Part shown: positions 4,806 through 7,432 of the stretch, piece after piece
Numbering within the stretch: the first letter of the stretch is position 1
Layout of the letters: each line of letters starts with the position of its first letter
From: Rubrivirga sp. SAORIC476
GTDB taxonomy: Bacteria; Bacteroidota; Rhodothermia; Rhodothermales; Rubricoccaceae
Assembly: GCF_002283555.1 (NCBI RefSeq)
Contig: NZ_MVOI01000018.1
Location: 1-44,701, forward strand
DNA length: 44,701 nucleotides
Direction: 5' to 3'
Position numbers and translations under genes: made by a program
The notes under the pieces: model-generated
The model's database searches: none
Told to the model about the DNA's origin: nothing
The model's input: the letters and a program-made list of their open reading frames with translations, nothing else

Positions 4806-5894
4806 CTACGCGTCGACGAGTTCGTCCTCCTCGACCGAAGTCTCGGGGGCTTCCGGAGCCGGCGCGTCGGGGTCGGGCATCATGCCCAGCGCGATCTTGA
4901 CCGCCTGCTTGACGGCCTCGCGGCGGTCGTCGTTGGTCTTCAGCCACTCCTTGGTGGCCTCGCGACCCTGGCCGATGCGCTCCTCGCCATACGAGTACCA
5001 CGAGCCCGACTTCTGGATCACGTCGTGCTCCAGCCCGAGGTCGATCAGCTCGCCGAGGCTGGAGACGCCCTCGCCGTAGATGATGTCGAACTCGGCCTGC
5101 CGGAACGGCGGCGCCACCTTGTTCTTCACGATCTTGACGCGCGTCCGGTTGCCCGTCACCTCCTGGCCGTCCTTGATGGCGCCGATGCGGCGGATGTCCA
5201 TACGGACCGACGCGTAGAACTTGAGCGCGCGGCCACCGGCAGTCGTCTCGGGGCTGCCAAACATGACGCCGATCTTCATCCGGATCTGGTTGATGAAGAT
5301 CAGGATCGTGTTGGTCCGCTTGATGGTGCCGGTGATCTTGCGGAGCGCCTGGCTCATGAGCCGGGCCTGGATGCCGACGTGGCTGGCGCCCATCTCGCCC
5401 TCGATCTCAGCCTTCGGCACGAGCGCGGCGACGGAGTCGATCACGACCACGTCGATGGCGCCGGAGCGGACCAGCATGTCGCAGATCTCGAGCGCCTGCT
5501 CGCCGGTGTCCGGCTGAGACATCAGGAGGTCGTCCGTGTTGACGCCCAGCTTCTCAGCATAGGTCGGGTCGAAGGCGTGCTCGGCGTCGATGAAGGCGCA
5601 GGTGCCACCGAGCTTCTGCGCCTCGGCGATGATCTGGGTCGCCAGCGTCGTCTTGCCGGACGACTCGGGGCCGTAGATCTCGATGATGCGGCCGCGGGGC
5701 ACGCCGCCGATGCCGAGCGCGTGGTCGAGCGTCAGCGAGCCCGTCGAGATGGCGTCCATCTCGACCGGCGGGGCGTCGCCCATCTTCATGACGGCGCCTT
5801 TGCCGAATTGCTTGTCGATCTGCTTCATGGCCAGGTCGAGGGCTTTCGACTTGGCCGCAGCGTCGGCGGGAATGGTTGCGGGAGACTTCGCCAT
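4806..5894 (-). CDS. recA: Recombinase RecA
   Basis: The DNA strand-exchange protein that also triggers the SOS response. 362 residues, normal length. Walker A is GPESSGKT at 75-82, Walker B is VVVIDS at about 149-154, and loop L2 with [20 protein letters not shown] spans about 202-221. The C-terminus is acidic ([12 protein letters not shown]), as expected. A start 35 codons upstream is open but reads through the promoter region and is not conserved-looking, so MAKSPATIP was chosen. It is the last gene of a pgsA-pyrE-cinA-recA run, but the 188-base gap to cinA holds a perfect inverted repeat and a possible promoter, which suggests separate, damage-controlled transcription. Confidence 0.98.
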
Positions 5895-5989
5895 GAGGGC
5901 AGGGCTCCGAAGAGCAGCTGTTGAATGAGTGGAGGGCCGAGGTTGTGGCCCCTCAGGCAGGGGGAACGCGACAGGGTACCGCCTCCAGG

Positions 5990-6007
5990 GTGACACCATC
6001 GTGTCAC
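5990..6007. promoter_or_regulatory. Perfect inverted repeat GTGACAC-N4-GTGTCAC upstream of recA
   Basis: Two 7-base arms separated by four bases (CATC), 96-113 bases before the recA ATG. A weak promoter-like TACCCTGT (5971-5978, minus strand) lies downstream, so the repeat would cover the -33 region. Symmetry, position and the gene behind it make it a candidate operator for a LexA-like SOS repressor. It does not match the Escherichia coli or Bacillus SOS boxes, so this is an inference. Confidence 0.5.
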
Positions 6008-6082
6008 GTCCCGATGACCTTTAGACCGCCGTGAAGGACAGACGTAACCTCGGCCGCCCGGAAAAGTTGAGGAGGCTCCGAA

Positions 6083-7342
6083 CTACGCGCCTCGAAGCAG
6101 CTGACGCCGGACGAGGTTGAGCACGGCTGTCACGGAAAGGGCGATGTTGGTCGCCCGGTCCGGCGTGAACTGCAGGCAGACGGCGCGCGTCGAGACGCCG
6201 TCGTCGTAGGCGAGCCACACCGTCCCGACGGGCTTTTCGGGCGTTCCGCCGCCGGGTCCCGCGATGCCGGTCGTGGAGACCCCGATGTCGGCGCCGAACC
6301 GCGTGCGGGCCCCTGCGGCCATGGCGAGCGCGACGGCCTCGCTGACCGCTCCCTCCACCTCGATCAGGTCGGCGGGGACGCCGAGGAGGTCGGTCTTGGC
6401 TTCGTTGCTGTAGGCGATCACGCCTCCCTGGAACACACCGCTCGCACCGGGAACCTCCGTGACGCGGCTGGCGATGGCCCCGCCGGTGCAGCTCTCGGCG
6501 ACGGCCAGCCGCAGCCCGCGCTCCCGCAGCGCCTCGTTGACGACCGCCGCTAGCGTCGTCCGCTCCTCCCCGTAGACGAGCGTTCCGAGTCCGTCGCGAA
6601 CGGCATCCGTGGCCGCGTCGAGAGCGTGTTGGGCGGCTTCCCGGTCGGCCCCACGAGCCGTGATCCGGAGGCGCACTTCACCGAGGCCGGGGAGGTAGGC
6701 CAGCGTCAGCCCCTCGGGGAGTCCCTCGACCTGCTCGCCGATCATGGCTGCGAGGTCGCTCTCCCCCTTCCCCGCCGTCAGCAGCGTCCGCGAGAGCACA
6801 ACGGCGTCCTGGAGCGCCGCCAGCCGCGGCAGCACGGCTTCTTCGGCGAGCACCTTCATCTCGTGCGGGACGCCGGGCATCATCGCCACGATCTGGCGGC
6901 GGCCGTCGTCGAGGTCGCGCGTGCCCCAGAGGCCGGGCGCGCTGCCCTTGGGGTTGTGGAGCGGCTCGAACCCGTCCGGCACCTCGGCCATGAGGCGCCC
7001 GACGGCGGGCATCGTCCGCCCGCGGGCCGCGTAGCGATTCTCGATCCAGGTCAGCACGTCCGGGCGAACGGTGACACCGACGCCGAACGCGCGCGCCACG
7101 GCCTCCTTCGTGACGTCGTCGTGCGTTGGGCCGAGGCCGCCGGTGACGACGATGAGAGCCGCCCCATCGTCGGTGGCTCGGTCGATGGCAGTCACGATGG
7201 CGTCCACGTCGTCGCGCACTGTCTCGCTGCGGAGCACGTCCACGCCGACCTCGGCGAGGCGCTCGCCCAACCAGGCGGCGTTCGTGTTGACGATCTGGCC
7301 GAGGAGGATCTCGTCGCCGACGGTGAGGAGGAGACCGGTCAT
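6083..7342 (-). CDS. cinA: CinA-family nicotinamide-nucleotide amidohydrolase
   Basis: A 419-residue two-domain CinA. The N-terminal molybdopterin-binding-like (COG1058) domain starts TGLLLTVGDEILLGQIVNTN and carries VVTGGLGPTHDDVTKEAV near residue 75. The C-terminal domain (about 255-415) has the NMN deamidase signature VAESCTGGAIASRVTEVPG and STTGIAGPGGGTPEKPVG. The enzyme recycles nicotinamide mononucleotide to nicotinate mononucleotide in the pyridine nucleotide cycle; in several Gram-positive bacteria it is also linked to competence. It lies just upstream of recA, a common arrangement. The ATG chosen is 16 codons inside the longest frame, because the family starts directly with this strand. 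Confidence 0.95.
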   Translation of the reverse strand: MTGLLLTVGDEILLGQIVNTNAAWLGERLAEVGVDVLRSETVRDDVDAIVTAIDRATDDGAALIVVTGGLGPTHDDVTKEAVARAFGVGVTVRPDVLTWIENRYAARGRTMPAVGRLMAEVPDGFEPLHNPKGSAPGLWGTRDLDDGRRQIVAMMPGVPHEMKVLAEEAVLPRLAALQDAVVLSRTLLTAGKGESDLAAMIGEQVEGLPEGLTLAYLPGLGEVRLRITARGADREAAQHALDAATDAVRDGLGTLVYGEERTTLAAVVNEALRERGLRLAVAESCTGGAIASRVTEVPGASGVFQGGVIAYSNEAKTDLLGVPADLIEVEGAVSEAVALAMAAGARTRFGADIGVSTTGIAGPGGGTPEKPVGTVWLAYDDGVSTRAVCLQFTPDRATNIALSVTAVLNLVRRQLLRGA

Positions 7343-7432
7343 GGTGCGGAGCGATGCAAAAGGGAGGGAAGCCACTGGGCACCTCCTCAACCCCTCTGTG
7401 CCGTCGTGGTGCCGGGGCCCCCGATGACCGCC

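Follow-up and report, generated by a model that had tools for sequence, protein, structure and literature searches.

WYL-domain regulators are the closest described systems for the locus reported here, and LexA-independent activators of this type are already known from mycobacteria (PafBC and SiwR) and from Caulobacter (DriD). As set out in the available excerpts, PafBC is a heterodimer of the WYL-WCX type that activates recA and a large number of repair genes independently of LexA, with one half-site at -26 and with the polymerase needed for binding (PMC5656591, PMC6789036, PMC11804915), and its mycobacterial promoter motif is given as tTGTCRgtg-8nt-TannnT (excerpt of PMC5656591). DriD is, in the accessible part of PMC12340889, a homodimeric WYL activator with ssDNA as its effector and a small known regulon, recA being said to be a target; its operator is a pseudo-palindrome whose GAC...GTC half-sites cover the -35 and keep a fixed distance to the -10. 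SiwR of Mycobacterium smegmatis is portrayed in part of PMC10693628 as a WYL activator that forms homodimers and has an imperfect palindrome ahead of its -10. The LexA regulons of Balneolaeota and Bacteroidetes likewise have DNA-damage operators before recA in related bacteria, and the motifs quoted in extracts of PMC7739468 and PMC8565304 are the direct repeat TTACACATATTTTWTACATA, CTAA-N5-TTAG and GGA-N5-TCC. None of the boxes in those extracts resembles the recA palindrome described below, and their repressors are of the S24 peptidase family.

The window analysed here is the whole stretch of 44,701 nucleotides from Rubrivirga sp. SAORIC476 (contig NZ_MVOI01000018.1). It carries recA (4806..5894, minus strand, 362 aa; TIGR02012 recombinase RecA, E 3.7e-170, and Pfam RecA), whose ATG is at 5894, and before it on the same strand cinA (6083..7390, upstream start putative; Pfam CinA 2.3e-55, CinA_KH and MoCF_biosynth). 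Positions 5990..6007 are occupied exactly by GTGACACCATCGTGTCAC, in which two 7-base arms form a perfect inverted repeat around a 4-base spacer (GTGACAC-N4-GTGTCAC, core TGACA-N6-TGTCA, no strand assigned); the repeat begins 96 bases upstream of recA. The original prediction, which had described a perfect inverted repeat about 100 bases before recA and an adjoining promoter-like sequence, was confirmed. TACCCTGT is the minus-strand reading of 5978-5971, and a -10 element, TACCCT, is proposed at 5973..5978 (minus strand), 12 bases after TGTCA, on the basis of its own pattern match and of the TANNNT spacing in relatives. Scanning the window with three mismatches allowed gave 2 matches against 2.5 expected from shuffles, which is chance level and uninformative. 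Genome-wide (4.48 Mb) there is one copy of the perfect 16-base core TGACAC-N4-GTGTCA, while TGACA-N6-TGTCA stands at six places, and the reversed control gave none in either case. An element like GTTA-N17-TGTCTA is found at window positions 6022-6048, and is perhaps a divergent promoter; it recurs before recA in L091-L093, L121, L193 and others, is also present in genomes without the palindrome, and its exact pattern occurs in 18 of 387 loci.

The best evidence that the recA repeat is real and not due to chance is its conservation upstream of recA in relatives. The best named match of recA itself is from a Rubricoccaceae bacterium (L005, 80% identity), with an upstream identical to that of G054 in f1, the family of the window's genome, so that f1 is probably Rubricoccaceae; L005 was the only one of 80 recA-match loci with the same family name, and the other 79 were not used. 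Of the 99 genomes of the order that were searched, 90 entered the comparison of recA upstreams (30 loci and 60 further stretches); left out were those without a recA match (G005, G080 and G086), with a weak match (G037 and G091) or with a partial one (G031, G066 and G074), and one that was not fetched (G057). The pattern TGAC[AG]-N5-7-TG[TAG]C[AG] was present in 58 of the 90, compared with 37 of 1800 base-shuffled upstreams. Where one upstream held several matches, the one nearest to TGACA-N6-TGTCAC was kept, a choice that favours spacer 6, and with this selection 56 of the 58 sites have that spacer. The form conserved in the order is TGACA-N6-TGNCA, with a right half that reads TGTCR in 38 sites, TGACA in 14 and TGGCA in 6. 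The search did not demand a -10, and TANNNT nevertheless begins 11 or 12 bases past the site in 47 of the 58 (offset 11 in 32, offset 12 in 15, the window's own site being among the latter).

In its spacing this arrangement appears close to the PafBC motif (RecA-NDp, P1), where TGTCR is followed after 11 bases by TannnT, with TGNCR preceding TANNNT at offset 11 or 12; the gtg of the mycobacterial motif lay outside the scoring and is CCC in the window's own site. It differs from PafBC in that the operator is a palindrome of two halves, with one regulator gene, in another phylum. The palindrome over the -35 at a nearly fixed distance from the -10 recalls DriD, but the DriD consensus, ATACGAC-N7-GTCGTAT, has other flanks, and TGACA-N6-TGTCA (GAC-N8-GTC) is one base longer. 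SiwR is comparable by its description; as set out in the excerpt, it differs in controlling adjacent dinB-like genes and not recA.

The genome has a single WYL match, P0002 (C3:2110397-2111389), a single-module protein of 331 aa with HTH_11, HTH_PafC, WYL and WCX domains. It is thus an HTH-WYL-WCX regulator like PafBC, but it is one protein, and the genome holds no PafB/PafC pair or fusion. Among PDB sequences its best match is PafBC (6sj9, E 2.8e-30), with DriD (8tp8) weaker at E 3.3e-7. A structure model of middling quality (pLDDT 75.7, pTM 0.50) also gave PafBC (E 1.3e-16) and DriD (6.6e-16) as best Foldseek matches, at a TM of about 0.33. One of the six TGACA-N6-TGTCA sites of the genome, TTGACAAACGACTGTCACCC, lies upstream of the P0002 gene itself. 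The WYL gene has its own site in 11 of 30 loci, which are all 8 of f1 and all 3 of f10, that is, the window's genome and ten relatives. The remaining 19 have none, and in at least 9 of these the WYL gene lies no more than 160 bases after an ORF that looks RsmG-like by eye.

Across the order the recA site tracks one WYL-domain regulator and not the order-wide LexA. When a best match with E <1e-50 is counted as WYL ortholog and G088 (38% identity) is excluded, the recA site accompanies the ortholog in 53 of its 54 genomes and is seen in 5 of the 36 that lack it (90 genomes, Fisher p 8e-18; here, as with the other co-occurrence p values, the kinship of the genomes is ignored and their independence overstated). 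Seen from the other side, the ortholog is present in 1 and absent in 31 of the 32 genomes that lack the recA site. The exceptions are these: the WYL-negative genomes that bear the site are G054, G016, G020 and G084, all drafts that are 83-88% complete, and G088 with its 38%-identity WYL match, and G004, which has the ortholog, retains only a broken half-site at recA. Families f13 and f15 each contain both states (WYL gene with recA site, and neither), and the 6 genomes examined from f14 have neither. With the strict motif and the -10 both demanded, 58 of the 99 order genomes yielded 143 sites, against 1 for the reversed control, and strict sites went with WYL presence (2x2 table 51/8/7/33, p 3.7e-12, kinship again ignored); a single strict site is found in each of G073 and G080, which lack a WYL ortholog.

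We put the probability at roughly 0.8 that the repeat is the operator of P0002, an HTH-WYL-WCX factor that is predicted to bind it, most likely as a homodimer and as an activator. Judged from sequence, the recA repeat is a DNA-damage operator of a new class and not a LexA box, and it is probably read by a WYL activator akin to PafBC, DriD and SiwR. The palindrome occupies the place of a -35 box, and TGTCA, the half nearer to recA, lies 11-12 bases before the -10. On the model of PafBC and DriD, DNA damage would cause ssDNA to accumulate and to bind the WYL domains, thereby switching on the dimer. The active dimer on the palindrome would then recruit the housekeeping RNA polymerase to a promoter that has no -35, raising expression of recA together with that of the regulator gene and further repair genes, without LexA cleavage. 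Both the ssDNA signal and the activation are proposed on the strength of homology to PafBC, DriD and SiwR; the site, its geometry and its partner gene come from the sequence comparisons above.

The palindrome's position also lends itself to the opposite sign of control, in which the WYL protein would be a repressor released by ssDNA or another ligand, as with the WYL repressors of phage defence. A site that overlaps the promoter suits a repressor as well as an activator, WYL repressors are mentioned in the excerpt of PMC11804915, and BrxR/CapW appear as lower Foldseek matches of the P0002 model. But an activator seated at the -35 would need just such a lock of 11-12 bases to the -10, and P0002 comes closest to the activators PafBC and DriD in both sequence and fold, so that we consider repression improbable and keep to activation by P0002 as the preferred reading.

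Since recA is a usual LexA target, the original prediction had taken the repeat for a LexA box of a new class, through which a LexA of this genome would repress recA. Three proteins with a LexA DNA-binding domain were read in the genome, besides a fourth, weak match (C3:390220, E 1.5e-4), and the LexA types were assigned manually according to the model range covered by each match. LexA1 (L003) retains the Ala-Gly cleavage site, the Ser and the Lys, and the ACAC...GTGT-type symmetry seen by eye in its upstream has a distant likeness to the recA site. However, its relatives at 75% identity or more occur only in G012 and G032 and are absent from G033, G040 and G064, which are of the same genus and keep the recA site. 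LexA2 (L004:1117-1788, plus strand, C3) has lost the catalytic Ser and has Arg for Lys, and adjoins an ORF that is MraZ-like by eye. In place of the recA palindrome its upstream carries GTGAAA-N4-TTTCAC-type repeats, similar to repeats in L330 and L331. The genome's own copy of the third, order-wide LexA (L319:549-1139, minus strand, C6) keeps the DNA-binding half and has no Pfam S24 match. The four aligned f1/f10 members (L319, L320, L324 and L326, of which L324 retains the Lys) have lost the Ala-Gly site as well as the Ser, and both are kept in L329, L334, L335 and L336 from other families. Many order-wide lexA genes have TGTG-type direct repeats upstream (by eye, uncounted), like the Balneolaeota motif as excerpted.

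Association over the 90 genomes gave a p of 0.77 for the order-wide LexA and 0.55 for LexA1, and of 0.016, a weak association, for LexA2, all three without regard to kinship. The order-wide LexA is present in 28 of the 32 genomes without the recA site and in 49 of the 58 with it, and seven f3 genomes have the recA site and no order-wide LexA match. None of the three LexA genes examined in this genome, nor umuD, has the site upstream, and none of the six listed sites of the genome lies at either kind of gene. In favour of LexA, motif-like strings do precede a few LexA genes elsewhere (L284, L293-L295, L306, L308 and L309). A clean swap to LexA control at recA in the genomes that lack the WYL gene was not seen either, as one pattern for the TGTG-type direct repeat was found at recA in 5 of 31 WYL-less upstreams, 18 of 59 others and 10 of 900 shuffles. 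The distribution, the different repeats before lexA genes and the absence of the site there led us to reject LexA as the reader, and we regard LexA control through this repeat as very unlikely. The new operator class of the original prediction survives, as a site of DNA-damage type unlike the LexA boxes of E. coli and Bacillus, but LexA as its reader is not supported, given that the site is missing at the three LexA genes and follows the WYL gene. An RNA hairpin that would terminate cinA transcription or fold in the recA leader is suggested by the 7-base stem and 4-base loop about 75 bases past the cinA stop codon, but can be dismissed, since the right half varies among relatives (in the 20 of 58 with TGACA or TGGCA the stem is broken and the half-site kept), the minus strand has no T run after the repeat, and the same site precedes unrelated genes at a set distance from the -10.

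Having set these alternatives against activation by P0002, we turn to the genes behind the operator. Of the 143 strict-site loci, 70 were read (30 from the listing and 40 hand-picked), two being without an ORF by our rule, and the downstream clusters were named by Pfam on one representative each. They include SSB (8), Rad52/22 (6), RecA (3) and topoisomerase IV A-type (3), and single cases of RecR, RuvB, RecT, an AlkZ-like protein, a UvrD-type helicase, two exonucleases, DUF2461, a calcineurin-like phosphoesterase (SbcD-like by eye) and a RadA-like protein (by eye). The original prediction had suggested a search for the repeat at lexA and other damage genes, and in relatives the site does stand before other repair genes. 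An AAA_24-like ATPase (below the cut-off) and an unknown family recur behind the site, own genome included; many of the remaining single ORFs have no recognised function or are possibly in wrong frames. In two relatives (L259 and L268) the operator precedes a CRISPR Cas_GSU0053 gene and a RecT gene. The six sites of the window's genome are at recA, at the WYL gene, at a PARP-domain gene, at the unknown family and the AAA_24-like ATPase, which stand in tandem, and inside an ORF. When a relaxed pattern is combined with the -10, recA and the tandem pair alone are recovered, and no TANNNT stands at the expected distance from the sites at the WYL and PARP genes. The PARP-domain protein is bacterial and is encoded at L166:212-1450 (minus strand, C3).

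The operator extends beyond the order. The strict motif was found in 93 of 296 phylum genomes (control match in 9) and in 39 of 43 genomes of the class outside the order, and two of the four class genomes without it have a WYL match of E 1e-40 or better. Such WYL matches occur in 80 of the 296 phylum genomes, at a likeness too remote to be equated with orthology. Outside the class, a WYL-family ORF lies near the site in 8 of 12 loci (8 of 10 from the scan listing, 0 of 2 hand-picked), within 100 bases in three cases; within the class, none of the 18 loci read has a WYL ORF near the site. Among the neighbours tested at phylum loci are two DinB-family proteins, a glyoxalase-fold protein and a methyladenine glycosylase. 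DinB-family and glyoxalase-fold neighbours are of the kinds described next to SiwR in the excerpt of PMC10693628, and some phylum loci thus share the DinB-superfamily neighbours of SiwR. At class locus L377 the site precedes recA. A small conserved protein of 100-126 aa stands behind the operator in 11 of the 18 class loci, in sister lineages of the class (by eye; L365-L368, L371, L372, L374, L376 and L380-L382), and the one tested gave no Pfam match.

Taken with the known WYL activators, these sequence data point to another large setting, in which a WYL activator would preside over recA and a recombination programme in most families of the order and, going by the motif, in 93 of 296 phylum genomes. 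The titles and opening abstract lines of the open-access literature on WYL with recA, Bacteroidota or DNA damage, and on LexA with Rhodothermus, contained no account of such a regulon. A defined operator, a candidate regulator and a set of target genes are now available. A broader proposal, to which we give about even odds, is that in this Rubricoccaceae-like family the LexA switch has been dismantled, the order-wide LexA having lost the half that carries self-cleavage, and that a WYL activator sensing ssDNA and reading TGACA-N6-TGTCA at the -35 has taken over the inducible control of recA and of a recombination regulon, the operator class being phylum-wide and possibly an old, undescribed second damage response of Bacteroidota and their relatives. 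WYL control of recA might account for the loss of LexA self-cleavage in a lineage, and a second switch that has been little explored seems to govern part of DNA repair in this bacterial group.
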